Source of the DNA: a virus
Direction: 5' to 3' (one strand)
DNA: 64,000 nt
Virus record (IMG/VR): IMGVR_UViG_3300037189_021371
Span: 1-64,000 of that record
A program made the position numbers and the translations under genes. The notes under the pieces were generated by a model that saw nothing but the letters and a program-made list of their open reading frames with translations, was not told where the DNA came from and searched no databases. Below are positions 1-33,013 of the stretch, piece after piece; the stretch's first letter is position 1, and each line of letters begins with the position of its first letter.

Positions 1-3155
<3,155 letters not shown>

Positions 3156-3156
<1 letters not shown>

Positions 3157-3521
3157 TATTTTGTAACCTCTGGTCTAACTGTTAAGTTTCCCTGAATGAC
3201 TTTAGTGACCGTGCCCGTAGATGTCTCGGTCATCTCTAAGTCGTAGACATATTTTCCTGGAGATATAGCTGCAGTTTGCGCAGGTGATGCAATAATAAGA
3301 ACAGTTCCTGCTGTTGGGTTTACCTCAATGCCACCATTTTCTGTGGTTAAAGTTAAAATCACATCAGGGGATTCTGTTTTTAAATAACGAATCTCCATCA
3401 CTCCGGTATAGCCATTTAAAGGCACTGATTTTTTAGCAGCGTTCTTTAACCCTATTGAACGCAAGAGGGTAGCACCTTGATCGACAATAATGTCGTAAAC
3501 ATTCGTAGTTGTACAGTGCAC
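3156..3521 (-). CDS. Fibre-adaptor-like virion protein (paralogue of the 23595-23957 product)
   Basis: This 121-residue protein aligns end to end with the 120-residue product of 23595-23957. Shared pattern: 'YxIIxDQG' near residue 10, a central 'LTTENG', 'KYVYDLE' and an ending of the 'xVRxEVTx' type. The start is GTG at 3521, supported by that alignment and by AGGGAC upstream. It is probably a small beta-rich protein. Each paralogue stands directly before a fibre gene, and here the stop overlaps the collagen-like gene start (TAATG). The adaptor or attachment role is inferred from position only. Confidence 0.6.
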
Positions 3522-3610: not shown

Positions 3611-4300
3611 TTATTTCATAGCTAGGTCTGGTCTAGCATCTTTTCCATAATCCGGATCTAGTGCTGCAATTTCTTCTGGAGTTCTATGACGCTTCCACCC
3701 GGTACCAATGTGGAATTTTTCACCTTGCTGAATTTTGGTAGATGAGTGAAAAAATGGCTTTACGCATGGGAAAATAACCATGCTTCCTGGAGTAGATTTA
3801 ATAGTTAAATTCTGCTCTGGAAACCAAAGATCTCCACCTATTTTGTTATCATTTAGGTAAATTAATCCTGTACAAATAGGGTCCACTTGAGGCTCATAGT
3901 TATCATCAACATGAGGCCCCATTTCCTCTCCAGTATTGTAGTGGAATGAGGCAAAATCAGTCATAATTCTGCCACCTTGATAATCCATGCCAAGAGCATC
4001 GAAGTAGTAACGACCAGCTTCATCAAAAATATTATTTATTTTTGTATAAAAAGCTTTTACTTCCTCGTTTTTAGTAGACTCTAAATACATTCTTGTGGAC
4101 ATACGCTTAGTGCCATAGATGTGCGGTATCTCATCCGATGTTTGCCACGGACCTAGCTTATGGAAAACATCATAGTGATCTGTTTCTAGCAAAGAATCCA
4201 TATTTTTATGCATATCTATTGCATATTCAGGATCATCTAAAATGCCTTCAAAATAAAAAATTCTGTCGGCATATACAGTTACTTTTGATGGATCAATCAT
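3611..4300 (-). CDS. Prolyl-4-hydroxylase-like Fe(II)/2OG oxygenase (array member 8)
   Basis: Double-stranded beta-helix dioxygenase of 229 residues. Predicted metal ligands are H130-x-D132 and H185; K195 would bind the 2OG carboxylate. The family signature is altered: where most neighbours read 'NDDYEGGE' this one reads 'NDNKIGGD'. This is the last oxygenase of the minus-strand array, 16 nt after the previous stop. Enzymes of this fold hydroxylate protein residues (mainly Pro), nucleobases or small molecules. The substrate here is unknown; nearby virion fibres are the first candidates. Confidence 0.85.
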   Translation of the reverse strand: MIDPSKVTVYADRIFYFEGILDDPEYAIDMHKNMDSLLETDHYDVFHKLGPWQTSDEIPHIYGTKRMSTRMYLESTKNEEVKAFYTKINNIFDEAGRYYFDALGMDYQGGRIMTDFASFHYNTGEEMGPHVDDNYEPQVDPICTGLIYLNDNKIGGDLWFPEQNLTIKSTPGSMVIFPCVKPFFHSSTKIQQGEKFHIGTGWKRHRTPEEIAALDPDYGKDARPDLAMK

Positions 4301-4316
4301 GGCTCTCCCAAGCTAT

Positions 4317-5006
4317 TTAAGCGTTTTTGTTCCCTGCAGCCCATTGCTTCTTTTGCTCATCCTGGCGGGTGCGCTCATACGCAATTTCATCTTCCATCTG
4401 CTTGAGCTCTTCTTCGGTGTAAACCGAGTCAGCATAATCCCAGAAACCTACTACTGTAAATCTAGTTCCTTCTAGAATTTCAGTAATACGATGAATATTC
4501 TGAACGCCACCAGGAAAAGCAATTAGGCTACCCTGAGGGAGTTTTACAGTTAGATCATGATCACGAAACTCTAGCTCCCCACCCTCGTAATCATCATTTA
4601 AATATAGAACGGTGGCAAACTTATTGTTACGCCATGCAGTTAGATTTCCCTCTAGGTCAGAACTATCCGAGTGCCAACGAGCAAAAGCCCCCTTTGGCCA
4701 TTTCTGAGCATGAGCACTATTTAAAGTAACTTCTCGATCGTAGGCTTGCTCTACGGCAGCGCGGATGTGCTCTGGCAACCAACGGAAATAGTTTTGGTGG
4801 ATATCTTCCAACCCCGAACGATGCAAGGCATCCTCATCAATCATGAGAGCCATGCCTAGAGAGTCATAGAAGCAGGTCTGCATCCAGTGACCTGATACTG
4901 TACCCTGTTCTTCAAAGAATGCAATAATCTTGTTGCACTCTTCCGGGCTTAAAAATTCAGGAAATGTGACAACATCATCCTTTAGCCATATCGGTTCCGG
5001 AATCAT
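4317..5006 (-). CDS. Prolyl-4-hydroxylase-like Fe(II)/2OG oxygenase (array member 7, type A)
   Basis: 229 residues with H112-x-D114, H172 and R182, and the core 'YLNDDYEGGELEF'. It is clearly paralogous to the product of 5855-6580: both share 'SHAQKW'/'AHAQKW', 'HSD.SD' at the metal site, 'FWD.ADS' after the catalytic core, a charged C-terminal helix and an ending 'GNKxA'. With the next upstream gene it forms one copy of a duplicated two-gene unit. The N-terminal half probably shapes substrate binding. Substrate unknown. Confidence 0.88.
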   Translation of the reverse strand: MIPEPIWLKDDVVTFPEFLSPEECNKIIAFFEEQGTVSGHWMQTCFYDSLGMALMIDEDALHRSGLEDIHQNYFRWLPEHIRAAVEQAYDREVTLNSAHAQKWPKGAFARWHSDSSDLEGNLTAWRNNKFATVLYLNDDYEGGELEFRDHDLTVKLPQGSLIAFPGGVQNIHRITEILEGTRFTVVGFWDYADSVYTEEELKQMEDEIAYERTRQDEQKKQWAAGNKNA

Positions 5007-5043
5007 TTTTCTCCTAATTTATTCTTAAAATATAAGTATACTA

Positions 5044-5841
5044 CTAGTCGTAGAACCTATCCCTATGTTTGTCTTGCTCTCTTCTAAAGGCGCTTTCTCT
5101 AGCTTTTTCCATTTCAGCCCATTTCTCCGGCCCGTGCTCTGCTAATCCAGCATTCCACTCCGGGGTTCCCTCGAACTGCTCTAGCCAAAAAGTTCTAATA
5201 AAATAACGATCTCCTGTTGCAATTTGACGTACCCCGTGAAAGTACGGCTCTACTGATGGAAAAACAACTACGTCACCTAAACCAGGCTTAAAATCTATAG
5301 TATCCACCACACCGTCTTCTCGAAGAATTTTAAATGAAAGCTCCCCGCCCTCATAGTCGTCATTCAAGTACATGGTGCAAGTTAGTGCAAACTTGAGACC
5401 AGGTGCATCTGCTTTTTCTCGCTGAAAGTCTGTGTGGTAATGCATTGAGTAGCGATCATCATCAACCCCACCTAGAGCTACATATTTAGCAATAGAAGGT
5501 TTTTGGTGGCACCAGTTTTTTAATTCAAGTGGGTATACATCCATATAGTGATTAGTTACTTCATAAAAAAGTTGATCAATGTATGGTGGTAAATCAGCAC
5601 CTGGCATACCTTTCTGATTTACCTCAGTATCTGCAATAAATTTTTCCCACTCGGCGGGGGTTGGTTTGGTTTCGAATCTTGTATATTCGGGTCCAGGTAG
5701 GCTTGCCAATTCTCCAAAAGTCCACCAAGCTTGCCACGTAGGAAGCTGCTTAACTTTTTCAATAAAAGCCATCGGGTCTTTAAATGCACCCTTAAATACC
5801 ATGATTCTTGGGTATATCTCTATAGGATTTAGTTCTGACAT
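5044..5841 (-). CDS. Prolyl-4-hydroxylase-like Fe(II)/2OG oxygenase (array member 6, type B)
   Basis: 265 residues with H136-x-D138, H202 and R212, and the core 'CTMYLNDDYEGGELSF'. It is a close paralogue of the 6580-7344 product: shared 'HYHTDFQ.EK', 'FPS..PY.HGV', 'GTPEW..GL' and a Lys/Glu/Arg-rich tail of about 40 residues. It is the B half of the duplicated A+B pair. The tail beyond the catalytic fold could be a coiled-coil contact surface. Confidence 0.88.
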   Translation of the reverse strand: MSELNPIEIYPRIMVFKGAFKDPMAFIEKVKQLPTWQAWWTFGELASLPGPEYTRFETKPTPAEWEKFIADTEVNQKGMPGADLPPYIDQLFYEVTNHYMDVYPLELKNWCHQKPSIAKYVALGGVDDDRYSMHYHTDFQREKADAPGLKFALTCTMYLNDDYEGGELSFKILREDGVVDTIDFKPGLGDVVVFPSVEPYFHGVRQIATGDRYFIRTFWLEQFEGTPEWNAGLAEHGPEKWAEMEKARESAFRREQDKHRDRFYD

Positions 5842-5854
5842 AGTGCTACCTTAT

Positions 5855-6580
5855 TCATGCGTATTTATTTCCGTTTTTCCACTCTTCGCGTTGCTCGGCT
5901 TGAGAGGCTCTAACTTCTTCTAATTCTTTTTCCCACTGAAGCTTTCTTTCTTCCGAGTAGGTTGAATCTGCAAAATCCCAGAACGAGAGCATAGTGTGGC
6001 GTTCTCCAGAGAGTATTTCCCTTACTTCATGGATATTCTCTATACCACCAGGCATTATGTATATAGAGTATTTGTTAGGCTTAATTGAAAGGTTATGGTC
6101 TGGGAAGTGCAAGATCCCGCCAGTATAGTCATCATTTAAGTATAAAATGGCTACATATTTGTTTATTTCGAATGCAGTTGGATTCCCGTCAAAATCGGAA
6201 TTATCCGAGTGAGGATAGGCAAATCCACCCTCCACCCATTTTTGGGCGTGAGATGTATTTGGTTTAACTTCTATATTAAAAATAATCTCTACAGCGGCTT
6301 TAGTTTTGCTGTTTATAATTTCAAACACTTTAGAGTCTAGGTCAAACTTTTTTAACTCTTCAGCATCTGGATTCAGTCCCATGCCATAGGAGCCGTAAAA
6401 AGCAATAGGCTCCCAGGATTCTGGGCCATTTTCAAAATACTCAATTAGTTTCTCTGCAATATCAGCATCTACAAAATTAGGTATTTCAACAATTTTATTT
6501 TCTAGCACACCGAGCTGAGATTTTGTATTTATTTCATTTTTATAGTATATAAAAGTATTTGAATCTAAAGAATACGACAT
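5855..6580 (-). CDS. Prolyl-4-hydroxylase-like Fe(II)/2OG oxygenase (array member 5, type A)
   Basis: 241 residues with H124-x-D126, H184 and R194; the core is 'YLNDDYTGGILHF'. Paralogue of the 4317-5006 product, including the metal-site context and the 'GNKYA' C-terminus. Its ATG overlaps the stop of the upstream oxygenase (TAATG), so the pair is probably translated together. Second copy of the A half of the duplicated pair. Confidence 0.88.
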   Translation of the reverse strand: MSYSLDSNTFIYYKNEINTKSQLGVLENKIVEIPNFVDADIAEKLIEYFENGPESWEPIAFYGSYGMGLNPDAEELKKFDLDSKVFEIINSKTKAAVEIIFNIEVKPNTSHAQKWVEGGFAYPHSDNSDFDGNPTAFEINKYVAILYLNDDYTGGILHFPDHNLSIKPNKYSIYIMPGGIENIHEVREILSGERHTMLSFWDFADSTYSEERKLQWEKELEEVRASQAEQREEWKNGNKYA

Positions 6581-7344
6581 TAGTAATCCCCATTCATGAG
6601 GTTATAGCGTCCATCAATTCTCTCTGCCTTCTCCCGCTGAGCTTCCATCTCTAGCCATTTTTCTTGACCATATGATTTAAGTCCTTGGTGCCATTCCGGG
6701 GTGCCTGGAAAGTAATAGTCCCAGAACGATCTAACAAAATATTTTTGACCTTTGGTTGTTAAATGCACTCCGTGGTAGTAAGGCTGATTAGATGGGAATA
6801 CTAAAATATCCCCTGCTTTGGGTTTGTATACAAAATTATCTGATGGAGATCCTTCTTTTAGAATCTTAAAATCTATCTCTCCACCTTCATAGTCGTCATT
6901 CAAATACATAGTGCATGTAATGTATGGTTTAAATCCGGGTTCATCACGTTTTTCTTGCTGAAAATCGGTGTGGTAGTGCATGGCAACTTCTTCTGATGCA
7001 CCAGCATTAGTGTTATACATGCATATTGCAGGAGAGTTAAAATTCCAAGCTACTGGAGTAATTTTGTTATTTTCTACATAATGTTTAGTTGCTTCATAGA
7101 AGGCAGACAAGATCATACTTGCCGCTGAGTTAGGCTTTTCTACAGAATCTTCAATCTGCTTCCACTCTTCTTTCGTTGGGAAGGTCTCGAAGGTTCTACG
7201 ATTCAACTGGATAACGGTCTGATCGCCAAAAGTATACCAACCATCCCAGTCATATACTTCCCTTAGGGTAGTCACAAGCTCAGAAGTATTTCCTAGCAAA
7301 CCGCTATAAACACTTATTTTTGGGTATAGGTTTTTAACTTCCAT
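6580..7344 (-). CDS. Prolyl-4-hydroxylase-like Fe(II)/2OG oxygenase (array member 4, type B)
   Basis: 254 residues from the ATG at 7344; a TTG four codons upstream is the alternative start. From the ATG, predicted ligands are H125-x-D127 and H191, with K201 as the 2OG-binding residue. Core 'CTMYLNDDYEGGEIDF'. Paralogue of the 5044-5841 product. The start lies inside the end of the upstream oxygenase gene, an 11-nt overlap, implying coupled translation. The C-terminal 45 residues are charged and helical-looking as in its paralogue. Confidence 0.87.
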   Translation of the reverse strand: MEVKNLYPKISVYSGLLGNTSELVTTLREVYDWDGWYTFGDQTVIQLNRRTFETFPTKEEWKQIEDSVEKPNSAASMILSAFYEATKHYVENNKITPVAWNFNSPAICMYNTNAGASEEVAMHYHTDFQQEKRDEPGFKPYITCTMYLNDDYEGGEIDFKILKEGSPSDNFVYKPKAGDILVFPSNQPYYHGVHLTTKGQKYFVRSFWDYYFPGTPEWHQGLKSYGQEKWLEMEAQREKAERIDGRYNLMNGDY

Positions 7345-8008
7345 GATGCTTAACAATTGTCCAGAAGAACGGGCATGTGTAGCGAATACCGGATTTAATC
7401 TCAGTTACCCCATGGATATAGTTCATATCTCCGGGGAAGAAGTAGGCAGCTCCACGCTTTGGCTTGAACTGGATTCCCTGGTTTGGGAAGTACAGCTCTC
7501 CACCCTCGTAGTCGTCATTGATATAAAAAAGGCCAGCTAGGTCATAATATGGAAAATCATTTGGCTTTCCTCTATCATCACCAACGTGAAGTTCCTTATC
7601 AGCATGTGGGTGCTGGAACATCCCTGGTAGCCATCGAACTAGAGCAGGGCTTGTTGGCATGGCATCAACATTAAAGAACTTATCTACTTCAACCTTAAAA
7701 CGAGCTACCATTCCCTCAATAATTCTAGGGATTTCCGGATTTACTCGATCGATAGTTCCATACGTGGCAACCCTGTTTGCCCAGTAGTCAGAGTCATAGA
7801 TCACTGTGCCCTCGTCGTTGTAGTGGGTCTCAGTTACATCCCACTCGGTATTGCTACGAATAAAAGTATCCAGTGCGACTATTTCTTCTTCAGTCATAAA
7901 GTTTTCTAGGGTGACAATATTGTCAGGGGAGTTACCAAAAAATCCAGAAGGAGTAATAGATACTCGTTCAGCACCTCTGTGGCTATTTGCTAGTTCTTGT
8001 TCACTCAT
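7334..8008 (-). CDS. Prolyl-4-hydroxylase-like Fe(II)/2OG oxygenase (array member 3)
   Basis: 224 residues with H135-x-D137, H199 and R209; core 'FYINDDYEGGELYF'. An AGGAT ribosome site precedes the ATG. It lacks the charged tail of the A/B paralogues and is not an obvious close copy of any neighbour. Function in the array unknown; same catalytic geometry as P4H-type enzymes. Confidence 0.87.
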   Translation of the reverse strand: MSEQELANSHRGAERVSITPSGFFGNSPDNIVTLENFMTEEEIVALDTFIRSNTEWDVTETHYNDEGTVIYDSDYWANRVATYGTIDRVNPEIPRIIEGMVARFKVEVDKFFNVDAMPTSPALVRWLPGMFQHPHADKELHVGDDRGKPNDFPYYDLAGLFYINDDYEGGELYFPNQGIQFKPKRGAAYFFPGDMNYIHGVTEIKSGIRYTCPFFWTIVKHHGS

Positions 8009-8022
8009 ACTTTTATCCTACA

Positions 8023-8760
8023 TTACTCGTAGACTCGGCGAGTCCAGACTTCCTTTTGATAAACTCCACCATTAGGTACTCGGTACTTCTGGCTATTTTC
8101 CATATTATTCTTCATCATCTGCTCATAGCCGATATTAGTTTGAACCTCTGAGGTCCAGTCTTCACGCTTGAATGGGATGATTTGAGCATATGGAGTCCCG
8201 GCTGGGATTACTCCAGTAAAACCTTTAGCAATAAAAAATGGCATGGTACCTGGGAGATGAACTTTATCATTATCAATAATTCCACTGGTCGTTAAGAACG
8301 GTAGCTCAAAGCGATTAAAAGGCTGAGAATAAAGTGCACTATAGCCCTCTGGAAGAACTACTGCCCAATCGGCCCACCAGGCAAAATGCTTCTCGTGATA
8401 CCCGCGTGGCGAAACAAACTGGGGCATTGGCATACGATCGCCAACAAAGTCCTTATTCTGAGGATCTAATACTCGAATCCGGATCTCGCCATTTTCTTCA
8501 TAGACCTCAACGTCGCATGGGGTCTTATAGACATAGCCAGTGCCCATGATGTCAAATACCGCTGGGCAAGCTTTCCATGTAGGGACTTTTCCACCGTCTT
8601 GAGGATTAATCCATGGCTCGTTGGTGTGGGGGTTGATTGCAAAACGATCAGCCTTACGATACCATTCTGGAATAGTTTTAATAGTAGGGCCTGGTACAGA
8701 AGCACTTTTGCTATTCAACCAAGGTCGATTACTTATAAACTTAATCAGCTGGGATTTCAT
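8023..8760 (-). CDS. DUF6065-like protein of unknown function
   Basis: 245 residues, not an oxygenase by motif: no HxD...H arrangement with the array signature. It shares architecture with the next upstream gene, including a late 'IPAGTP' segment followed by a hydrophobic strand ('AQIIPF'). From memory both recall the uncharacterised DUF6065 family; I could not check this. The start lies 20 nt inside the upstream gene. Placement within an oxygenase array suggests a role in the same process, for instance as substrate or partner, but nothing in the sequence shows the activity. Confidence 0.55.
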   Translation of the reverse strand: MKSQLIKFISNRPWLNSKSASVPGPTIKTIPEWYRKADRFAINPHTNEPWINPQDGGKVPTWKACPAVFDIMGTGYVYKTPCDVEVYEENGEIRIRVLDPQNKDFVGDRMPMPQFVSPRGYHEKHFAWWADWAVVLPEGYSALYSQPFNRFELPFLTTSGIIDNDKVHLPGTMPFFIAKGFTGVIPAGTPYAQIIPFKREDWTSEVQTNIGYEQMMKNNMENSQKYRVPNGGVYQKEVWTRRVYE

Positions 8761-9478
8761 AGGTATCTCCTGTTACTGGACACTTTACTGTCTTTAGTCG
8801 AATATTTTTTGACTCATGCGATCCCATTGAACTTCCGTCATAGTTGATTGCATCTCGATACATCTTTGACCAGTCGCCAACAGAGTTCTTAGCCTCTGCA
8901 GCATCGCCATATTTCTTAAGTTCTTCATAGTATTCACGAGACATATCACCTTCAGAGATTTCCATCTCGTATTCGTCTTGCAAGCTACCGATTGAAATAG
9001 GCAGAATGGTAAAAATAGGGGTACCAGCTGGGATAGTTATTTCTCGATTTGGCTCAGTTATCTTAAGAGCTAGTGGATATTCTCCCGTATAGAAAGATGT
9101 GCTCATTAGCGTCGTAAACGGCTGAATACCCCTAATAAATAGATTAGGTGTAGGCATCGTAAGCATTGACGTATTCTCATCGGTTCTAATCATTAGTCCA
9201 CCATAGAAACTAACTGTGCCGTGGGCTCTTCCTGTATATACATAGTCGGATCCCTTAAGGACTTTTACGTGGTGTTGTTCATAGTTCTCCACACCATCCC
9301 AGATAAAAGAGATGTCCTCGGGGAAAGATATTCCCCAGCCCAACCGATTAGTGAGAGAGACCGGGAAGCACATATACGCATGCTTATCGTGAGTGTTGTC
9401 CATCCACTCTCTGGTTCCAGGTAGCTGCTCTACCTGAGCCGAGGTGGGGCGTAGACGTCTTACTTCAATTTTCTTCAT
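8741..9478 (-). CDS. DUF6065-like protein of unknown function
   Basis: 245 residues, opening with 'RRLRP' and 'TREWMD' and a central 'LGWGISFP', a pattern I associate with DUF6065. It shares 'IPAGTPIFTILPI' near residue 180 with the equivalent region of its downstream neighbour, so the two are probably diverged paralogues. The ATG overlaps the stop of the upstream oxygenase (TAATG). No signal peptide or membrane segment is visible. Confidence 0.55.
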   Translation of the reverse strand: MKKIEVRRLRPTSAQVEQLPGTREWMDNTHDKHAYMCFPVSLTNRLGWGISFPEDISFIWDGVENYEQHHVKVLKGSDYVYTGRAHGTVSFYGGLMIRTDENTSMLTMPTPNLFIRGIQPFTTLMSTSFYTGEYPLALKITEPNREITIPAGTPIFTILPISIGSLQDEYEMEISEGDMSREYYEELKKYGDAAEAKNSVGDWSKMYRDAINYDGSSMGSHESKNIRLKTVKCPVTGDTYEIPAD

Positions 9479-10227
9479 TAGCTTCCAGTTTCTTCATAAA
9501 ATTTAGGATTGTGAAACTTATCGCTATAGTCAAGCATTGTAACCATAGAGTACTTGGTCCCTGATTTAACTGGCATCGCTCGATGTGGGTACATAAAGTT
9601 AGATGGGAAGATGTATAGATCTCCCGCCTTAGGTTTAATGGTTACATTGTGGAGACGGAAATATAGCTCCCCCCCTTCGTAATCATCGTTAGGGAATGCT
9701 ACTAGAGACACAACACAGTTATATGAAAATCCATGATCATGGTGCTCTTGGAAGTGCTGACCAGGGCCATATTTAATATAGTTAGTTGCTTCCCAGTATC
9801 GGAGTTCACCGATATTGTAGTGCTTAGTGTAGTGCTTTACAGCCTCTAGTTCTCTGGAATAGACATCATCCGCTAGCTGATGCAATGCTAGCCCAGATGG
9901 GGTTGTATCCTGAGCAATATCACTCTTTTTATATTTGAAATCAAAGCAGTCTCGGTATTCTGGCATCTTCACCCCGTAGCCAACCATAGCATCTGCAAAA
10001 TTGTAGTCATTAGATGGATCGCTGAGAACTGCTTCTAGACGATCAATAATGTTTAAGGTTGGTGGAAGTACGTCATGGTATACCCAAATTCCTGTTCCAG
10101 GAGCTACTTCTTCTGCCGAACTCCAAGTTTGATTCCCGATGTTATACCAAGACTTGAGACGAGTATTGTGCTCTTCCATGTCTTTTTTCATCTGCTCATC
10201 GGGGGCGCTAATGTGTCCAGTTTCCAT
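9478..10227 (-). CDS. Prolyl-4-hydroxylase-like Fe(II)/2OG oxygenase (array member 2)
   Basis: 249 residues with H162-x-D164, H215 and K225; core 'FPNDDYEGGELYF'. Strong AGAAGGAAG ribosome site before the ATG. It resembles the product of 10241-10993 around the metal site ('FxxHxDHG') and in 'IKPKAGD', so the two form another, more diverged paralogous pair at the head of the array. Confidence 0.87.
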   Translation of the reverse strand: METGHISAPDEQMKKDMEEHNTRLKSWYNIGNQTWSSAEEVAPGTGIWVYHDVLPPTLNIIDRLEAVLSDPSNDYNFADAMVGYGVKMPEYRDCFDFKYKKSDIAQDTTPSGLALHQLADDVYSRELEAVKHYTKHYNIGELRYWEATNYIKYGPGQHFQEHHDHGFSYNCVVSLVAFPNDDYEGGELYFRLHNVTIKPKAGDLYIFPSNFMYPHRAMPVKSGTKYSMVTMLDYSDKFHNPKFYEETGS

Positions 10228-10240
10228 TTGCTTCCTTCTA

Positions 10241-10993
10241 CTAGTACTTCAGTTCATAGTTTTGAATAGTTGGAGATACTCGGTGGTTTACCCCATCGCG
10301 ATCGTTGTAGTCAGTCATTACAACTACTGCATACTTAATTCCGCTAACCATATCTTGAGATGCGTGCTCATAGATAAAAGTAGATGGGAACACAACGATG
10401 TCTCCAGCTTTTGGCTTAATAGTTAGACCATCAAATCTTGGGAAATAAATCTCTCCACCCTCATAATCGTCATTCAAATAAACTACGACAGATATTGTGC
10501 ATACATAGGTTGGTCCATGATCGGCATGAATCTTAAAGTGAGTGCCAGGGCCATCATATTTTACAAAATTAAAGGACTCATAGGATGCGATCCCTACCCC
10601 CCATAGGCGACCGTAATCATCGACACATTGGCGAATAGCCTGAAAAACTCTTTCATGCATGTCATATAGCTCTGAGTTTTCTTGTGTTCTAGCTCCTAGA
10701 TTATTAGAGCTAATTTTAAAATCTAAAGCGTTTCTGGCATATAAGGCAACTTCGTCTGAGGAGGTCACGCGAGCCCCCTGCCACTCATATTTTGTTTGCC
10801 CATTCAAATGAGATTCTAGAGTCTCTATGTACTTAAGACCTTGTTCTCTAGAAATTGCACCACTATAAACATTAATCCCCAGTGCTGGATTAGATACGGT
10901 AATTGGACCTAACTGGCGATTTGCAGACCTATTACTAGTAGTTTCTGATCTGTCTTTAGTAAACCAGTTATTTTGACTTGGATCGTATGTCAT
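10241..10993 (-). CDS. Prolyl-4-hydroxylase-like Fe(II)/2OG oxygenase (array member 1)
   Basis: 250 residues with H156-x-D158, H210 and K220; core 'VYLNDDYEGGEIYF'. AGGAGA precedes the ATG. It is the first gene after the terminator at 11048-11080, so the oxygenase array may have its own promoter or depend on read-through from the Hint-domain gene. It groups with the 9478-10227 product by 'HADHG'/'HHDHG' at the metal site. Confidence 0.88.
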   Translation of the reverse strand: MTYDPSQNNWFTKDRSETTSNRSANRQLGPITVSNPALGINVYSGAISREQGLKYIETLESHLNGQTKYEWQGARVTSSDEVALYARNALDFKISSNNLGARTQENSELYDMHERVFQAIRQCVDDYGRLWGVGIASYESFNFVKYDGPGTHFKIHADHGPTYVCTISVVVYLNDDYEGGEIYFPRFDGLTIKPKAGDIVVFPSTFIYEHASQDMVSGIKYAVVVMTDYNDRDGVNHRVSPTIQNYELKY

Positions 10994-11084: not shown

Positions 11085-12431
11085 TTAGTTCTGGTGTACT
11101 AGATATCCACCTGCAATAAACCAGTTATATGGTTCACAGATGTACTGATATACGGTTGTAGGTTCGTAAATCTCGGTGATAGATGAGATCTCTTCTGTTA
11201 CATAAGTACCATCCGGCAGCACCTTGACCAAGTAGTCTCCAGGCTTCAGTAGTCCAGCATTTATAGTCTGGAACTGACCATCAACTAGGGCAAACATTGA
11301 CTGCTCATTTGAGTACTTAGCAGTTGTATCTTCATTGAAGTATACGATTTCTGCCTTAGTACTCTCGATAATGTCAACGATAGTAGTCTCTACTGGCTCT
11401 CCACCGCCGAGGGTTAGTGTAGGGCCAATAATAAAGTTTTCTTCAGATCGAGGCTCTGTTGAAAGCTCTTCTAGAGCTACTGATACCAAGGTATCTCCTA
11501 CCTTAAGATCCTTAGCCGCTACTGATCCCGAAGGAGTATCAACCAAAGTACTTTCCTCGATGCAGAAGCGAGGAGGGAAGAACGGGAAGAACGGGAAGAA
11601 CGGTGGGAAATAAGGGAAGAACGGTGGGAAGTAAGGGAAGAACGGTGGGAAATAAGGGAAATAAGGGAAGAACGGTGGGAAGTATGGGAAATAAGGAGGG
11701 AAATATGGGAAGTATGGGAAATAAGGAGGGAAGTACGGGAAGAATGGCGGGAAGTAAGGGAAGAACGGGAAGTAAGGGGGGAAGTAAGGAGGAGTTGTTA
11801 CAGACCCAGAATAACCAGACCAGTCTGAATTTCCATTGGCGTTTGTGGCATAAGCACGATACTGTTGGGCAGTATTAGCTTCCTGAGCTACAGCAAATTC
11901 TGCGGTACTAGTTCCTCGGTCACCAGACTTAGAGTCAGTACTTTCCCAGTGGAAGTTGGTAATTGCAGAACCACCAGTTGCAGAGATTGTAATTGTTAGG
12001 TAGTCATTTTGGTCATTACTGACCTGACGAACTGACGGAGTATTTGGGGCAGGAGGTACAGTACTTACAGAGACTGTTTGAGAAGTTGTTGGATTTGAGT
12101 TTCCAGCATTGTTCTTAGCTACTACCGTGAATGTATAGTCTGTACCAGAGGCAAGACCTTCAAATACGAATGGAGATCCAGAAGTTGGAAGTGTAGTTGT
12201 GTTTTTGGTTACAGTTGTAGGGGTAGTTGTAATATCGTAGCTTATAGCTGGAGCTGAGCCATTAGGTAGAGTCCATACTAGGTTTACTGCACCACCAGTG
12301 CCAGCATTTCCAGTAGCAGAAAACAGGTATGGTCGGTTAGTACCAACGTTAGTTGCAGTGGTGATAGTTACTGCAGCTGGCTGCAAAAAGTCATTCTGCT
12401 GTGCGGAGTGCTTACCGGTTCTTTTGCTCAT
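11085..12431 (-). CDS. FN3-like / Pro-aromatic repeat / C-terminal Hint domain protein
   Basis: 448 residues in four parts. Two fibronectin-III-like domains cover about residues 18-130 and 132-213. A low-complexity stretch of P-Y-F-P and P-F-F-P units covers about 214-288. A Hint (intein/hedgehog-type) domain covers 290-448. The Hint part starts at C290 ('CIEESTLVDTPSG'), has 'KDLKVGDTLV' and 'LKPGDYLVKV', and ends 'YLVHQN' at the stop codon, so nothing follows as a C-extein. The block-B His appears replaced by Gln ('NEQS'), so autocleavage may be altered. It stands between the fibre genes and the oxygenase array. Probably a virion or surface protein that self-processes or attaches through Cys290; the proline repeat is a candidate oxygenase substrate. 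Confidence 0.8.
   Translation of the reverse strand: MSKRTGKHSAQQNDFLQPAAVTITTATNVGTNRPYLFSATGNAGTGGAVNLVWTLPNGSAPAISYDITTTPTTVTKNTTTLPTSGSPFVFEGLASGTDYTFTVVAKNNAGNSNPTTSQTVSVSTVPPAPNTPSVRQVSNDQNDYLTITISATGGSAITNFHWESTDSKSGDRGTSTAEFAVAQEANTAQQYRAYATNANGNSDWSGYSGSVTTPPYFPPYFPFFPYFPPFFPYFPPYFPYFPYFPPYFPYFPPFFPYFPYFPPFFPYFPPFFPYFPPFFPFFPFFPPRFCIEESTLVDTPSGSVAAKDLKVGDTLVSVALEELSTEPRSEENFIIGPTLTLGGGEPVETTIVDIIESTKAEIVYFNEDTTAKYSNEQSMFALVDGQFQTINAGLLKPGDYLVKVLPDGTYVTEEISSITEIYEPTTVYQYICEPYNWFIAGGYLVHQN
11577..11792 (-). repeat. Short tandem DNA repeats coding for Pro-Tyr/Phe-Phe-Pro units
   Basis: Bases of the type GGGAARTANGG recur about every 9-15 nt and encode the aromatic-proline repeat of the FN3-Hint protein. 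Copy-number slippage here would change linker length in 3-codon or larger steps while keeping the frame. Confidence 0.8.
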
Positions 12432-13319: not shown

Positions 13320-16300
13320 TTATGCCTGCGCTTCAGTCCAAGAGATGCGTCCAAGTACATCTGCAGATGTTGTACCAACATTTGTAACTACAAATGTAAG
13401 TGTATCAGGTCCATCTGGGTAGATTCCGGTGTTTGCTACTGTGGAGCCACCACCTAGGATAGAGTTACCTAGGTCTCGTAGAGATCCTAGATCAATCGAA
13501 CCAGTTGTAGATACAAAGAATCCACCGGTAACTTCTCCACCATAAACTGTTGTCACACCGGTACCATGGTCAGCAATCTGAGCTAGAGACGAGTTAACAA
13601 CGCCTGGGATATTGCCCACAGCGTTTGTCCATGCGGTTGCCGATGAAGGTACACCATTTAGATATGCACGAATCAAAAGGTTTGCACCTGTCGTCTTAGT
13701 AGTGATATCCAAGGCGCTCATCTTTAGCTGCATGCGGTTAATCAAGTCGCGAGCTCCAAAAGCAGCTCCAATACCGTTATCCACAGACGGAGCTACTCGG
13801 ATTGACATAAGAGCCTTGCTAGCACCAGAAGCAATAGTTGCAAAGTTAGTCTGACCGTATGTGAAGATAAGAGACTTGTCGTCATCGAATCGACCATCCA
13901 TAATAACCGAGGTACCCCAGTGAGATACCGATGGTGAGAATGTAGGCGCTGCTAGCTCAACTGAAATTGGAGATGCTGCTGAGTATGTATAAGCAGTACC
14001 AGAAGTTGCACCTAGCGGAGCAAAAATCAAAGTCGGGTTATTAGCCGTTAGAGCAGAGTTGAGTGTAACAGTTGTTCCGCTAATTCCAGTAACAAAAGTA
14101 CCGTCTGGCACTGGGTTAGGGCTAGTGCTAGATACTACTCGTTGACCGATCTGGATACCTGTTGCACTGGATACGGTACCTGAGTTAGAGCCTGCTGTCC
14201 AGGTAGTAGTTACTCCAGCTGCGCCAGCCTGAGAACGAGTCAAACCAGTGAAAGTAGTTGCAGTTTTACCAGTGTAGTTTACATATTCATATGTCAACGA
14301 TGCTTGGTTAGTTGCTGTACTTGGACGGATAAGAAGAGTTCCAGTAGTAGGGAAAGATGAGGTATCTGAAACAGTAAGTGTTGTATCAGATGCACCAATA
14401 TTTGCAGTCACCTTAGTAGTCGGTGGTAGAGTCTGCGACTCGTAGCGACCTGGAAGGTTTCCTGAACGCATGTATGCTTCATTGTTGACGTTATTGTTTT
14501 GCATCTTGTGTGCATAAATAACGTCACCATTTGTGGCACGTACACCCCAGCGGATAAAACCAGCACCATACCAAGAGTAGTCCACATAGAACATCTGCAT
14601 CTTGGTTAGATCGATGGTGTACCCAGAAGGGCCGGTTCCATCTAGTTTATCTAGATTAAACTGCGACTGAGGGATACGAGTCTCGATTGTTTTAGACACA
14701 GTTACGTGTGAAGTAGAAGCTCCACGGTATGAAGGAGAGATAGTGAAGTTTGGTGTAGATGATATGTCATCAATTGCCAATACTCGGTAAGACTGCCCGC
14801 GAATAACTACATAGTCGCCAGGGTTTAGCTGGCTAGAGAATGCAGTAGGGAATGCGGATGTAGTTCTAGAGACAACATTTGATCCATTGGTAACGTCTAC
14901 TCGGCCAGAAAGCTGCTGAGTAGAAGAACGCTTAACTGCATATAGGTTCTGACCATCAAATTCCCAGAAAAGTCCATTCTGGCTGTCAAAAATTCCTAGA
15001 CGGTTAGCTGCTCCGTACCAAGTATTTACGTTTACGTTTACAATTCCAGTTGCTGGGCTAGCAGGGCTTCCGGTAATTGCATATGTGAAGGAGTTATAAC
15101 CGGTAATACTGCTAACAGTAAATGAACCGTTATATGCTGACTCATTTGCTCCAGAAATAACGATAGTTGTTCCAGGCTGAATATTGTGCTGCTCCTTAGT
15201 GGTTACAGTTGCAACTCCACCGCTAGAGGTAATGCTGTCAATATTTCCATATGGCTTAAAGATAGTTCCAGAAGACATCTGGATACCCTTACCAGACTGG
15301 TAACGGAAGTAACGACGAGTCTGGCGAATTGCAGTTTCATAGTTGGAAGAACCGTTAGCAGAGAAAAGAACTCCACCATCAAATGGACGGTGTAGGAACT
15401 GAGCTTGTGGACGAACATATATAGCTGCAGATGATGCAGTCAAGCTAGAAGGGGTTCCTTCTGTAGGATCTGCATAATATACAAAAGTAGTAGGAGAGGC
15501 AACTGTAGCTACCTGATACGAACCATTTGGTGGGTTAGTTCCGGTAATACCGGTAACACCTATTTCATTGCCTACTGATAATCCGTGAGGTACAGTTGTT
15601 GTTACTGTGACTTTTAGATCAGTACCTGAAACTGTTACTGTAGGTGCTCCACCAATCTGAGCATTTGTATAAATAGTTGCTACAGCAATAGATGTCTTGT
15701 TTGGGTCAAAAATTGAAGTAACACCCAGGGTATTCTGAGCACGACCTAAGTAGGTAAAAGTACCAGTTCCACCACCGGTCTCAATCAAGAAGTTACCATT
15801 TGCAATATTTAGGTATGTATCCTGTACCGTGATTGCCGAGCCAACTGCTGGAGCAACACCAGCAAGTGCAGATGCACCTGACCATGATGGAGTTCCCGTA
15901 GTTGAGTTGGCTACAACAAATGTGGTTGCAGTAGGGGTTGATGTAATTAAAAATGTTCCGTTATAGCCAGATACAGAGGAACCGGCAATTGTTACGTATT
16001 GACCAGGGAAGAATCCGTGGCTAGCAGCAGTAGTGTACGTGGCAAAACCAGTAACAGGAGTGGCAGAGGCTACAGAGTTTGGTGTAGACGAAGTGGTTGA
16101 GAGAGAAACAGTAACTACACGAGCATTTGAAGACATAGTCATCGAAGAAATATTACTCAATGTGGTGGCCGATGGTGCTGCAAATGGACGGTTATTTGTT
16201 GCAGCTAGGTTTTCCCACTTTGAAATCTGAGTACCATACTCGAAGTCAGTATCAATAAGAGCCTGTGGGCTTGAGGTACGTAGCTTATTTACAGGGTCGT

Positions 16301-16358
16301 TTAAAACCTCTGTAGGAGTAAAGACTGAATTAGGATTTGGATAGATATTAGATGACAT
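13320..16358 (-). CDS. Large Ser/Thr-rich virion fibre or baseplate protein
   Basis: 1012 residues, rich in Ser, Thr, Gly and Ala, with several 30-45 residue beta modules of the form 'HGF.PGQ.V.I.G....YNGT..I', seen near residues 112-150, 255-290 and 385-420. These look like repeated Ig-like or jelly-roll strands. No catalytic motif recognised. Its ATG overlaps the upstream stop (TAATG). Probably a long structural protein of the tail tip. Confidence 0.7.
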   Translation of the reverse strand: MSSNIYPNPNSVFTPTEVLNDPVNKLRTSSPQALIDTDFEYGTQISKWENLAATNNRPFAAPSATTLSNISSMTMSSNARVVTVSLSTTSSTPNSVASATPVTGFATYTTAASHGFFPGQYVTIAGSSVSGYNGTFLITSTPTATTFVVANSTTGTPSWSGASALAGVAPAVGSAITVQDTYLNIANGNFLIETGGGTGTFTYLGRAQNTLGVTSIFDPNKTSIAVATIYTNAQIGGAPTVTVSGTDLKVTVTTTVPHGLSVGNEIGVTGITGTNPPNGSYQVATVASPTTFVYYADPTEGTPSSLTASSAAIYVRPQAQFLHRPFDGGVLFSANGSSNYETAIRQTRRYFRYQSGKGIQMSSGTIFKPYGNIDSITSSGGVATVTTKEQHNIQPGTTIVISGANESAYNGSFTVSSITGYNSFTYAITGSPASPATGIVNVNVNTWYGAANRLGIFDSQNGLFWEFDGQNLYAVKRSSTQQLSGRVDVTNGSNVVSRTTSAFPTAFSSQLNPGDYVVIRGQSYRVLAIDDISSTPNFTISPSYRGASTSHVTVSKTIETRIPQSQFNLDKLDGTGPSGYTIDLTKMQMFYVDYSWYGAGFIRWGVRATNGDVIYAHKMQNNNVNNEAYMRSGNLPGRYESQTLPPTTKVTANIGASDTTLTVSDTSSFPTTGTLLIRPSTATNQASLTYEYVNYTGKTATTFTGLTRSQAGAAGVTTTWTAGSNSGTVSSATGIQIGQRVVSSTSPNPVPDGTFVTGISGTTVTLNSALTANNPTLIFAPLGATSGTAYTYSAASPISVELAAPTFSPSVSHWGTSVIMDGRFDDDKSLIFTYGQTNFATIASGASKALMSIRVAPSVDNGIGAAFGARDLINRMQLKMSALDITTKTTGANLLIRAYLNGVPSSATAWTNAVGNIPGVVNSSLAQIADHGTGVTTVYGGEVTGGFFVSTTGSIDLGSLRDLGNSILGGGSTVANTGIYPDGPDTLTFVVTNVGTTSADVLGRISWTEAQA

Positions 16359-16672
16359 TAGGATAGCTCCACTCCACTGATGTGTACTTTGATAGTAGTT
16401 GCAGAGGCAAATCCTCTAATCTTCTTTGGAGTAGCATTGGCATCCAAAACCTGCTTTAGGTCCATAGAAACGGTAGCATTTCCAGCAATTGGGCTAGTTG
16501 CAAAGAGCTCAACACCATCTAGCAGAATAGTAAAAGTACCTGCAGAACTAGTTGTATTAGTAATTACAATGTTAGTTACGATGGTCGTGGTTCCGGTAGT
16601 TGGGACTGTGTATAGGTCTCCAACTGATGTTGCAAATGAAGCTCTTGCTAGAGCCTTTGTTAACGTAGCCAT
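16358..16672 (-). CDS. Small beta-rich virion protein
   Basis: 104 residues with alternating hydrophobic/Thr strands and no charged clusters. The pattern 'VTNIVITNTTSSAGTFTILLDG' continues into 'VELFATSPIAGNATV' and resembles small phage proteins found beside fibre genes. GGAAGTAG precedes the ATG. Coupled to the large downstream gene by TAATG. Function not recognised beyond a structural role. Confidence 0.65.
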   Translation of the reverse strand: MATLTKALARASFATSVGDLYTVPTTGTTTIVTNIVITNTTSSAGTFTILLDGVELFATSPIAGNATVSMDLKQVLDANATPKKIRGFASATTIKVHISGVELS

Positions 16673-16706
16673 TAGTTACTACTTCCTTATTAATATGGTG
16701 GGTTTA

Positions 16707-19700
16707 TTAGTAGGCACCCATGATAACCATTATATCAACGCTCTGTGTGACCCATTGAGTATCGTTATCAGTGCCTGATTTTTTAACTAAGACTTGACCG
16801 GTAGTTCCGCCTGCTGGAACTCCAGAACCATTAGGGTTTGTAACTCCATTAGATAGAACCCATGTGGTGCCGTAGTAGACATATAGGTTTCCATCATTTG
16901 TATTAAACCAAACATCTCCTGCAGTAGGTGATGATGGTGCAGAAGAGGCTGAAGTTACAGCTGCTCCCTTAGATGCAGCAGTAATGCGACCCTTAGAGTC
17001 AACTGTGATGTTTGCACTTGTGTATGAACCAGCGGTGACTGTTGTAGTTGCTAAGGTCGGGTTTGGGTATGTTCCAGTAAGGTCTCCACCAGCAGAACCG
17101 GTAGGTGTACGAGAATCAGATAGACGAGAGTCTGTTGTAATAACTGCAGTTCCAGTAATATCTGATGGTGAAATGGCCGCAGATGAGCTCAGAACACCAC
17201 TTGAATTAGTCTTAACATATCCAGCTGTAGATAGCGGGGTAGTCACAGTTCCGGTAAAGGTAGGAGAAGAGCTTGGTGCTTTAGCATCTAGCTGAGTTTG
17301 GATCGAACTAGTAACGCCATCTACATACCCAATCTCCGTGGCACTTACGCTACCTATAGATGTTGTACTTGGCAGTACCACTGTTCCCGTGAAGGTTGGA
17401 GCATCAAGTGGAGCAAGTACAGTGTTATCTGCAGCAATTGTTCCACCAGTTTTAGTTAGACCATACCCGGTAACAATTGCTTGAGCAGCATTGAACTGCA
17501 CATATGTAACATTGTCAGTTCCAATTGCAACTGAGCCAGAGTTAGATAAGATAAATCCAGTGTTTGCATAGGTGCTACCACCTGTAACGAAGCAGAAATC
17601 TCCACCGGCAAGTTCACCAGATGGGTTATTGTCAGCATCTGCAGCACGAGTTATCTGCCAAGGAGCTGATCCACTACCTACAGCAGTAATGGTATAAATA
17701 CCATTTTGTTTTGCATCGGTCTGTGCACGGAGTAAGATACGTGAACCAACTACTACTGATGCACCATCAATAGTTCCAATTGATCCATTAGATGCTTTTG
17801 TTAGAGTTGCACCATACCCATTTGTACCGTTGTCATATGTTCCAGCAAGATTTCCGGCTGTAGCTGCAACTACTGGAGCGTGGAAGTTAATGCCCGAGGC
17901 AACTCCATCCACATATAGCTTTGTAGCTGCATGTAGATCAGAAGTTGGAGCACCTGAAAGCGTCAAGGCTCCTGTCATGGTGCCGCCGCTTAGGGAAAGT
18001 TTTGCATCTAGAGCAGTCTGCTGAGCAGTTGATACTGGCTTATTGGCATCAGAAGTATTGGTAACGTTGCCCAAACCAACCATAGACTTAGTAATGCCAG
18101 AAACCGTACCTGTAAACGTAGGGCTATCAATCGGAGCATAAGTAGAAGCTGCAGTAGATGAAGCTAGCTTTGAATCAAGCTGAGTCTGGATAGCCGAAGT
18201 TACACCATCCACATAACCAATCTCGATGGCTGAGACACTTCCAATAGAAGTAGTTGATGGCAGGACAACGGTTCCAGTAAAGGTAGGTGCTGCTAATGGT
18301 GCATAAGTAGAAGCTGCAGTAGATGAAGCTAGCTTTGAATCAAGCTGAGTCTGGATCGAACTAGTAACGCCATCTAGGTATCCGATTTCGGTATCAGATA
18401 CGCCAGTTACCTTATCTTGTTTAAGATCTAGAGCAGTCTGAGTAGCAGTGCTTACTGGTTTATTTACATCCGAGGTATTATTTACATTGCCTAGGCCAAC
18501 CATCGACTTTGTGATACCGGATACTGTTCCAGTAAATGTAGGATCTGCAGTAGGAGCCTTGGCATCCAACTGGGTCTGAATTGAAGAGGTAACTCCATCT
18601 ACGTATCCTATTTCAGTTGCAGATACGTTACCAATTGAAGTAGTACTTGGAAGAACTACAGTTCCAGTAAATGTTGGACCAGATAGCGGTGCTTTTGAAT
18701 CCAACTGGGTCTGAACTGCAGATGTAACACCATCTAGATAGTTGAGCTCGGTGGCGGATACGTTACCAATAGAGGTAGTTTGAGGAAGGCTGATGGTTCC
18801 TGTGAAGGTAGCTCCACCAGAAAGGTTAGCCTTAAGATCTAAAGCGGTTTGAGCTGCAATAGATACTGGCTTATTTGCATCTGAAGTATTATTGACGTTT
18901 CCTAGGCCAACCATTGCCTTGGTTATACCTGAGACAGTGCCAGTAAATGTAGGACTATCTATAGGAGCTTTGCTGCTAATTTGAGTTTGAATAGCCCCTG
19001 TAACACCAGAAAGATAGTTTAGCTCTACGGTAGTAGCAACTATTCCATCTAGTGTATTTAATTCAGATGTACTTGCAGTGATGCCATTTAAAGTATTTAG
19101 CTCTGCTGTGGTTGCTAGGATTCCATCTAGAATATTTAGCTCGGTAGTGCTAGCAGTAATGCCATCTAGAGTATTTAACTCGGCTGTGCTAGCTGTAAGG
19201 CCATGTAGAGTGTTTAACTCTGTAGTAGTTGCAGTGATGCCGTCTAGAGTATTTAATTCAGATGTGCTTGCAGTGATGCCGTCTAGAGTATTGAGCTCAG
19301 CCGTACTAGCTGTAATACCATCTAGGGTGTTAATTTCTGCTGCAGAAGCAGTAATTTCGCTAAGAGTAGTGAACTGATTCGGCCCTACAGTGTGAACTCC
19401 ACCATATGTGGCAATTGTTGTATCCACTGGAAGAGATACGCTACCGGTAAATGTTGGGTTATTTTTCAGAGCAATTGCATTGGTATCCGCAATGCCGTGC
19501 ACATTGGTAGTTTTGTTTGAGTGAGTGTTGATATTAGTGATCAACTGGGTTTCATAGACTAAGTTACGAGTATCTGAGATACCGTGAACATTTGTAGTAA
19601 GACCCTCGTGGGTGGCCATAATGCTATCAGCGTGGTCAATAGCATCAGTCTTAGCAGTACCGATGCTAGTAGCAACTGTAGTAGAGAAGTTGGCATCATC

Positions 19701-20429
19701 GTTGATGGCCGCAGCTAGCTCATTTAGGGTATTGAGTAGTCCAGGGGCAGCATCTACTAAGTTAGATACAGCTGTATCGGTATACCCATTTGCAGAGGTT
19801 ACTGCTCCGCTTGCAGCAGTAGAGATAGCACTAGCAGTCGCATCCAATGCACGCTGGTTGGTGAAGTATTTGTGGTTAGTACCTTCAGCTAAGTCATCTG
19901 TAGTTGAGTCAGCAACACCATTCTCGGCGGCAAAACTAATCTTGTTGTGTACATCATCGTAAGTAATAGTGATGTTTGCATGGGTTCCAGCGGCTATTGC
20001 TGCAGCGACAGCATCTTGAGCACGCTCGTCTGTAAAGTATTTGTTAGTACCTTCTTCAATGTCTGAAGTGGTAAGTGCATTGATAGAAGTATCGGTATAG
20101 GTGTTAGCTGTTGTAATAGCACCTGAAATGTTTGTTGCAATGCTACTAAAGAATGCTGGATCATCATTGATTGCTGCAGCTAGCTCATTTAGAGTATCTA
20201 GAGCACCTGGTGCCATATCAATGACATTGGAAACAGCTGTTGTAATAGCAGTTGCCACCTCAGTGGGAGTCATTCCTGCATAAGCTAGGTCTACCCATGC
20301 TGTTGTGCCGGTACCTACCTTTAGTTTACCGGTATCCGTCTCTAGAGCTAGTTCTCCGACTGAAAGAGTAGGATTGGTCGAGGTCCAGTTAGCGGCTGTA
20401 CCGCGTCTAATCTGAATCTTAATTGCCAT
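16707..20429 (-). CDS. Long repeat-rich tail fibre protein
   Basis: 1240 residues. The N-terminus '[15 protein letters not shown]' followed by '[21 protein letters not shown]' is a hallmark of phage fibre heads. Near residues 355-472 are nine 13-residue repeats of the form '[13 protein letters not shown]'. Further on, modules of about 45-50 residues repeat '[16 protein letters not shown]', '[19 protein letters not shown]' and '[12 protein letters not shown]'. The C-terminus has '[18 protein letters not shown]'. It should form a long trimeric beta-helical or coiled shaft. The start overlaps the preceding stop (TAATG). Confidence 0.85.
19014..19365 (-). repeat. Nine tandem 39-nt coding repeats in the long fibre
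   Basis: The 39-nt unit encodes 13 residues (consensus ITASTxELNTLDG). Copies differ mainly at synonymous sites and at the residue before Glu, which suggests old duplication followed by purifying selection. Confidence 0.85.
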
Positions 20430-31229: not shown

Positions 31230-32342
31230 ATGGATATGGATAAAAATAATAGCGATGCCGGGAGAAATTTCTCTAAGCCACTAATTATTTCTGGGAAAAA
31301 ACAAATCTCTTACTCGAAAAGCTCCAGGGATAGAATTTTTAGTACCATTTTGCAAAAAGATGAGTTTTATGTCAACAGCCTCTCCACTGCTGAAAAAAGA
31401 GGAATTGATATTAAAAATAAACTACTTCTAAGGTTTGATGAAAAAACTGGTGATCCTATATTTTTAGATAATACTAATGAGTACGTCTATAATTCAGATG
31501 GATATAGGTCTAAAGAATTTGATGGTTCGGCTAAATTGCTATATGCAGGATGTTCAAATACTTTTGGTACTGGTGTTCCTGAAGACAGAATTTGGGGATC
31601 AATGGTAGCTAATCATTTTGATCTTTCCTATGCCAACCTATCAAAACAAGGATCCTCTACTCATCTAATTGTTAAAAATATTTTTGCGTATTTTGACAAA
31701 TATGGACATCCTGAAGTTCTTTGTTGTTTATTTCCTGATTTTTATAGAATGATATTGGCATCAAATAGTAACCAGTTAATTTATAGAAACCCGCATGATA
31801 AATCTCCTGTAACTGGTTTTGGTACTGATAGTAAACTCTACGAAGTTCATTTGCATAATGCGCCTAATCCCGGGGACACGCCGGAATATTCTAGGCGTCC
31901 TCACAATGTTATTGATGTTATTCCTGCTGATACAGCTATTTACCAATCTATTCAAAGTATCTTAATGCTGGACCAATACTGTAGGGCTAATAATATTAAA
32001 TTTGCATGGTCTACATGGGAACCTGCGATGCTTTTCTTTTTAACAAATATAAAAAGTGAATATCCCCAAAATTACTCTAATTTAGTTAATTTAGATCTTT
32101 ATAACTGGGTCAAAAACCCAGATAAAAAAGTAGCAGGAGATTTATTTCAGAAAGATGCAGATCGATATATTAAAGATTCTGTATCTGAAATAGTCGATTG
32201 CCACAGTGAGCTTAGAGCTCAATATGGCGACAATTTTTTTAGAGGTTTAGATGATTTTCATGGCATAGATAAAACTCATTTTGGGATACATAAGCATACC
32301 CATATCGCTGAGTCTTATATTAAATTTTTAGAAAATAATTAA
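31230..32342 (+). CDS. SGNH/GDSL hydrolase-like protein
   Basis: 370 residues. 'LLYAGCSNTFGTGVPED' places a nucleophile Ser at about S109 in the SGNH block-I position. Near the C-terminus 'DKTHFGIHKH' supplies the D-x-x-H of block V (about D347, H350). Such enzymes remove acyl groups from glycans or lipids. No ribosome site is clear and there is no signal peptide. Convergent with the next gene; the stop codons overlap. Confidence 0.65.
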   Translation: MDMDKNNSDAGRNFSKPLIISGKKQISYSKSSRDRIFSTILQKDEFYVNSLSTAEKRGIDIKNKLLLRFDEKTGDPIFLDNTNEYVYNSDGYRSKEFDGSAKLLYAGCSNTFGTGVPEDRIWGSMVANHFDLSYANLSKQGSSTHLIVKNIFAYFDKYGHPEVLCCLFPDFYRMILASNSNQLIYRNPHDKSPVTGFGTDSKLYEVHLHNAPNPGDTPEYSRRPHNVIDVIPADTAIYQSIQSILMLDQYCRANNIKFAWSTWEPAMLFFLTNIKSEYPQNYSNLVNLDLYNWVKNPDKKVAGDLFQKDADRYIKDSVSEIVDCHSELRAQYGDNFFRGLDDFHGIDKTHFGIHKHTHIAESYIKFLENN

Positions 32343-33013
32343 GAGTTTCTACTGAAATTTACATCTATTCCAAGATCTTCGTAGTGTTTCTTAATAATCT
32401 TATTGCTTTCATCAAAACGACCTCGATCATCTTGTTTATGCTGGAATCCAATAGCTGCGCGAGGCCCCAGGGTCACTACAGAGTGGCCTACCATAAAACC
32501 AACAAATACTACATCACCTGGTTCTAGATGTAGTTCCATATCAGGCTTTATTCCGTAGGCACGCTCTTCGTTGATATTTTCTTGCTTATAAATCTTCCAG
32601 GTCACTTTTCCCTGACACTGCCAGTAAACAGTCTCGCGCATATCGCAGTGGGGGGCAATTGGCTTCTCTCCGCCAAGGAAATTAACAAATGCACTGACAG
32701 GCCAAAGCTCGTCTTCCAATAGTTCGTTGAAGACGTCTCTAACTATACGACTCTGAGGGAATACCTTATCATTTGGATTAGAGACCATTAAATAGAATAG
32801 ATTTCTTAAAAGTACTCCATTAATAAACCTCTCCTCGTATGGCTGAGCAGGGATATTACCTGGAGGGGTGGAAATCTCTAGCTGAGCATGGTTTATAAAG
32901 TCTTCCCAGGTGGGGACTATAGGAAATAGATTCTTAAAAACTACAGCTAATCCACCATTACGTACTTTCTCTATACCAGCACGTACTTCTTCTAATCTGT
33001 CAAATTCAATCAT
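32339..33013 (-). CDS. JmjC/cupin-like Fe(II)/2OG oxygenase (paralogue of 33988-34578)
   Basis: 224 residues. Metal triad H122-x-D124 ('PHCDMRETVYWQ') and H177, with R185 following. Spacing of all four residues is identical in the 196-residue product of 33988-34578, so both are one family. It differs from the P4H-like genes: no 'NDDYEGGE' and a cupin-like 'EPGDVVFVGFMVGHSV'. Likely a protein or small-molecule hydroxylase. It flanks the tmRNA/tRNA block on its left. Confidence 0.75.
   Translation of the reverse strand: MIEFDRLEEVRAGIEKVRNGGLAVVFKNLFPIVPTWEDFINHAQLEISTPPGNIPAQPYEERFINGVLLRNLFYLMVSNPNDKVFPQSRIVRDVFNELLEDELWPVSAFVNFLGGEKPIAPHCDMRETVYWQCQGKVTWKIYKQENINEERAYGIKPDMELHLEPGDVVFVGFMVGHSVVTLGPRAAIGFQHKQDDRGRFDESNKIIKKHYEDLGIDVNFSRNS

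Follow-up and report, generated by a model that had tools for sequence, protein, structure and literature searches.

A pair of phage oxygenase genes forms part of a larger, conserved cassette of late genes

The B-A gene pair examined here is one sub-module within a larger and conserved cassette of late genes, which comprises a Fn3/(PP[YFH]F)n-repeat/Hint-like protein, the oxygenases G and F, the proteins E and D, oxygenase C, B-A units and oxygenase X. The preliminary description of this DNA had recognized an alternating A-B-A-B arrangement of paralogues; that arrangement is real but incomplete, as the pair is only part of an array that runs from G to X. We consider it an evenly balanced proposition that the cassette carries out phage-encoded peptidyl hydroxylation with the Pro/aromatic repeat as its likeliest substrate, a substrate that is proposed from synteny and fold. 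The cassette together with its candidate substrate is a stronger finding than the duplication of the pair. 2-oxoglutarate (2OG)-Fe(II) oxygenases are common in phages, but their substrates are largely unknown, and proposals for their roles range from DNA repair to nitrogen sensing. Tying a cassette to one repeat protein provides a named, testable candidate, and possibly an instance in which a phage encodes the hydroxylation of a structural protein on a repeat other than collagen.

Layout of the array

The window, meaning the whole 64,000-nt stretch that was analysed (positions 1 to 64,000 of IMG/VR record IMGVR_UViG_3300037189_021371), covers almost all of a 64,024-bp record in which a genome profile search finds 14 matches to PF13640. 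The array occupies 3611-10993 on the minus strand, in the transcription order G, F, E, D, C, B2, A2, B1, A1, X, and its genes overlap or are closely spaced in an operon-like manner. The A-B units are the end of a row of eight oxygenases, the only break in which is made by two DUF6065-type genes, E and D. All features described in the rest of this section lie on the minus strand. Cassette gene 1 (11085..12431), which adjoins the array upstream of G, encodes a 448-aa protein with Fn3 (fn3 E 1e-8), a Pro/Tyr/Phe repeat (PPYFPYFPPFF...) and a C-terminal Hint/intein-like part whose matches to Hint families fall below cut-off. It is followed by oxygenase G (10241..10993; PF13640 E 2e-11), the cassette-core oxygenase F (9478..10227; PF13640 E 1e-13), the cassette-core DUF6065 protein E (8741..9478; PF19541 E 3e-26), the DUF6065-related protein D (8023..8760; phrog_7084), which has a predicted dUTPase/dCTP-deaminase-like fold, and the cassette-core oxygenase C (7334..8008; PF13640 E 4e-7). 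Then come oxygenases B2 (6580..7344; PF13640 E 6e-10), A2 (5855..6580; phrog_61 E 6e-17), whose ORF overlaps that of B2 by one base, B1 (5044..5841; PF13640 E 4e-10), A1 (4317..5006; PF13640 E 1e-9) and X (3611..4300; PF13640 E 3e-8). Downstream of the array are a 121-aa tail-fibre-assembly-like gene (3156..3521; phrog_1084 / phrog_3304) and a collagen-like (GXY) protein of at least 1052 aa (1..3156) that runs off the end of the window and record. In the latter, the Y position carries Thr, and Pro is almost confined to X.

Two oxygenase families

The four ORFs of the alternating arrangement are placed as originally described, with A1/A2 and B1/B2 as the closest pairs. In blastp, A1 and A2 share 43.2% identity over 222 aa (E 1e-60) and B1 and B2 share 42.9% over 245 aa (E 2e-68), while alignments of A with B are confined to the catalytic core (E 1e-7 to 1e-10). 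Global identities are 43.0% for A1/A2, 44.0% for B1/B2 and 23-28% for A/B, and every tree pairs A1 to A2 and B1 to B2. The HxD...H...R/K motif, which holds the Fe(II) site and the 2OG residue, is intact in all eight array oxygenases, in all 226 A members and in 161 of the 162 B members. X, A1, B1, B2, C, F and G exceed the curated PF13640 cut-off of 27 bits; A2 scores 25.7 bits in the Pfam search and 27.6 in the genome search. The PHROG labels 'DNA endonuclease' and 'ferrochelatase' (phrog_2297, phrog_274, phrog_3531) are likely annotation carry-over, because the matched parts are the 2OG oxygenase core. Two separate families are evident from these comparisons; the best explanation is that both are old and that their members are peptidyl-hydroxylase-like 2OG-Fe(II) oxygenases.

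An AF2 model of A1 (39 sequences, pLDDT 94.9) matches the collagen prolyl 3-hydroxylase P3H1, the viral collagen prolyl hydroxylase vCPH, the lysyl hydroxylase LH3, PHD2, a bacterial P4H and mimivirus lysyl hydroxylase in the PDB by Foldseek, with P3H1 at the top. The double-stranded beta-helix of this one model is closest to P3H/P4H/LH/PHD, a weak test given that the fold is common to the 2OG superfamily; as predicted, it would favour a peptidyl substrate. P3H1 (8k0e) is also the first PDB match of both the A profile (E 2e-12) and the B profile (E 1e-5), although identity is 15-18%, which is superfamily level, and the cassette has no CRTAP/PPIB partners. The viral collagen hydroxylases, chlorovirus vCPH (5c5t) and mimivirus lysyl hydroxylase (6ax7), share the fold and are likewise virus-encoded, but they are single enzymes, whereas the cassette has its enzymes in tandem, and what is most conserved next to them is a Pro/aromatic repeat protein and not collagen. 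PKHD-type hydroxylase PiuC gives weak profile matches to A and C, but A1 (34.1 bits) and B1 (25.1 bits) fall well short of the NF003974 equivalog cut-off of 143. Matches to TET/JBP (PF12851) reach 18 bits at most, for C, against a curated cut-off of 34.9.

Cyanophage genomes carry several 2OG-Fe(II) genes each (PMC3037559), and EGLN3-like or prolyl-hydroxylase-like folds are known in phages (PMC12774648). The cyanophage oxygenases (phrog_61, PF13640) belong to the same superfamily and also occur in several copies per genome. They differ from the cassette enzymes in that identity is low and limited to the core, and in that the two cultured cyanophages checked have no array beside a PxF-repeat protein.

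Conservation of the cassette

Scans of viral contigs with A1, B1, B2, A2 and C yielded several hundred loci, from which all oxygenase ORFs were extracted (1,991 genes, 1,211 distinct) and typed on a tree. The order F-E-D-C is nearly invariant, with E present in 253/253 and D in 252/253 of the loci that hold both F and C. After C comes A, often together with B, usually as C-B-A and sometimes as C-A-B, C-A without B, or larger sets. The cassette sits among virion genes and is carried by unlike phage backgrounds. The window has a structural protein of cyanomyovirus type. In another carrier, L155, the portal (16127-17707) is 58.5% identical to that of Streptomyces phages of the Yaboi group, which suggests from sequence that part of the cassette group may have actinobacterial hosts.

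A DNA search of cultured phages gave no match to the array; tblastn of cultured phages with A, B, C and F returned just partial core matches, mostly in cyanophages, and with E and the repeat protein it returned nothing. A scan of bacterial genomes with E found one small MAG contig only. Within the part of the literature that was covered, no published report describes the cassette or its repeat protein.

The neighbouring repeat protein

The repeat protein combines a Fn3-like part, a repeat of about 80 residues built from PPYF, PYF and PFF units, and the Hint-like C-terminus. In 67 of 70 loci its gene precedes the array, at a median gap of 119 bp, and a Pro-rich repeat is present in 145 of 149 homologues, many of which have PPHF or pure PPFF versions. 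The DNA that encodes the repeat (11584..11789, minus strand) consists of tandem repeats with varied codons for Pro and Tyr, and this variation suggests that selection may act on the protein. Hint and intein profiles match the C-terminus of relatives below their curated cut-offs (PT-HINT 8e-5, Intein_splicing 2e-4). A Hint or intein domain would have Cys at its start and a His-Asn-type motif at its end; the window reads FCIEES...LVHQN in this region, many relatives have LVHNK, and in others the motif is absent.

The association also holds in reverse. Sufficient sequence follows the repeat in 58 PP[YF]F-repeat loci, and in 47 of these a same-strand oxygenase lies downstream within 3 kb; collagen-like controls from an equivalent scan give 6 of 50 (Fisher p 2e-13). 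All but one of these 47 repeat-array loci also carry D/E, so the association represents one conserved cassette and not many independent ones. No oxygenase is near in 9 of 38 repeats; when eight such records were searched, five had an oxygenase at another position, and the remaining three measure 37, 8 and 7 kb. Two cyanophages and two haloviruses were checked for the repeat pattern, and none of them has it.

Repeats in the B1A1 loci are rich in Tyr (at least 0.43 in all 10, against a median of 0.06 in the others), a difference that reflects about two origins and is not significant once kinship is corrected for. A correlation between A copy number and repeat Tyr (rho 0.40, p 4e-4) was likewise lost on a kinship check.

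Candidate substrates and alternatives

How might such a cassette work? With O2, Fe(II) and 2-oxoglutarate, the oxygenases would act after translation on the Fn3/(PP[YFH]F)n/Hint-like protein encoded next to them. The residues hydroxylated would most likely be prolines, and possibly Tyr or Phe, and the product could be a virion appendage that is hardened or adhesive. Paralogues might differ in the positions at which they act, such that copies of B-A would make site specificity more diverse and would not assemble into an obligate A-B dimer. We tentatively speculate on a fuller protein-maturation system, in which 4-11 tandem hydroxylases and two dUTPase-fold proteins would hydroxylate the low-complexity Pro/Tyr/Phe repeat of a Hint-processed virion protein to give a hydroxyproline- or DOPA-like phage adhesive, with module copy number tuning the pattern; this is possible, though we would not yet expect it to hold in full.

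It is also conceivable, if unlikely, that the oxygenases hydroxylate the collagen-like tail fibre just downstream (1-3156), in the manner of the collagen hydroxylases of mimivirus and chloroviruses. Their fold is indeed closest to collagen hydroxylases, a collagen-like ORF on the same strand comes after the array in 27 of 116 loci with at least 3 kb downstream, compared with 3 of 74 upstream, and all seven B1A1 loci with enough downstream sequence have one. But in 89 of the 113 loci for which downstream sequence is available, no collagen-like ORF follows the array, and an oxygenase lies downstream in just the 6 of 50 collagen-like viral loci given above. A canonical collagen P4H is ruled out by composition: Pro is at Y in 32 of 4666 GXY triplets, leaving such an enzyme almost without a target, and the 1463 Pro at X would need P3H-like action. 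Collagen is at most a secondary substrate. We think it rather improbable that the cassette instead serves to produce or process a modified nucleotide or DNA base, with D/E as dUTPase/dCTP-deaminase-like proteins and the oxygenases as TET/JBP-like enzymes. The top Foldseek matches of the D model (AF2 pLDDT 93.9) are all dUTPase/DCD, the best PDB match of the E profile is a viral dUTPase, and D homologues in haloarchaeal tailed viruses, which have no such arrays nearby, adjoin thymidylate synthase, RNR or tail-fibre genes. However, these dUTPase matches are weak (best E 2e-3 for D and 0.44 for E), the Tet_JBP matches of A1 and C are weak and below cut-off, A has a peptidyl-hydroxylase-like fold, and the cassette is part of a virion module, in company with the repeat protein. 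The peptidyl-hydroxylation reading does not account for D/E, and this keeps the nucleotide-related one alive. A very improbable alternative is that these are general auxiliary metabolic genes with a part in modulating host 2-oxoglutarate or in DNA repair, a role proposed for the 2OG-Fe(II) genes of cyanophages (PMC3037559); multiple copies per genome are known in cyanomyoviruses, but such a role would leave the conserved gene order, the tie to the repeat protein and the place among virion genes unexplained.

The preliminary description had proposed that A and B work together, perhaps as a heterodimer or on successive sites of one substrate, and had named relatives with isolated A or B as evidence against this. 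An obligate arrangement of either kind now seems doubtful. Partnership would be consistent with the adjacency of B1 and A1 in all 11 loci that carry them, with the probable translational coupling of B2 and A2 through their one-base overlap, and with the fact that B never occurs without A in the 37 loci that were fetched through gene C, which are non-redundant and chosen independently of A and B. Those same loci, however, comprise 24 with A and B, 13 with A only and none with B only; other oxygenases stand between A and B in several arrays, and A is not adjacent to 11 of the 31 B genes. Near relatives are favoured among the 80 best C matches, such that A/B counts from them are not population frequencies. 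The frequent occurrence of A without B means that an obligate pair or heterodimer is not supported, and site diversification by separate paralogues would still be our preferred reading of the B-A copies.

History of the B-A block

That a two-gene block was duplicated, as first described, agrees with the nearly equal identities of the two paralogue pairs (43% and 44%) and with the constant B1-A1 adjacency. The block occurs in two array contexts, B2-A2-B1-A1, which is confined to the window and its closest kin, and A-A2-(A2)-B1-A1, which accounts for the remaining B1-A1 loci. A recent tandem duplication can be rejected: the longest DNA word common to both units is 17 nt and the best DNA repeat is 67 nt at 78%, and the lack of any longer shared word indicates that the event is old. 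In comparisons of orthologues in which the identity of A is 38-48%, the mean is 36.7% (sd 3.1) for B and 58.6% for C. Among phages with the BABA order, C is 89-90% identical, while the within-genome pairs stand at 43% for A and 44% for B. Both paralogue pairs have therefore diverged in step, to the level seen between phage lineages. In the A tree, A2 groups with the single-copy A2 of other phages and A1 is placed elsewhere, yet A1 and A2 as sisters are not rejected (AU test, p 0.145). The second B-A unit could thus stem from an old duplication of the block or from its transfer from one phage to another; both fit, and the data do not decide between them. The duplication is real but is an ordinary, old block event.

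Other features of the window

Six more 2OG-Fe(II) oxygenases lie beyond the array (35121-35741, 39124-39723, 41139-41774, 46055-47910, 51457-51990), among nucleotide-metabolism and other genes. Two JmjC_2 (PF08007) proteins, at 32339-33013 and 33988-34578 on the minus strand, are further putative 2OG oxygenases and bring the total to about 16 in 64 kb. Directly 3' of one oxygenase gene, at 35750-37192 on the plus strand, is a Nol-like carbamoyltransferase (phrog_1601), which may point to sugar or nucleotide modification. A 39-bp tandem repeat spans 19045-19331 within a tail-fibre-like ORF (16707-20429).
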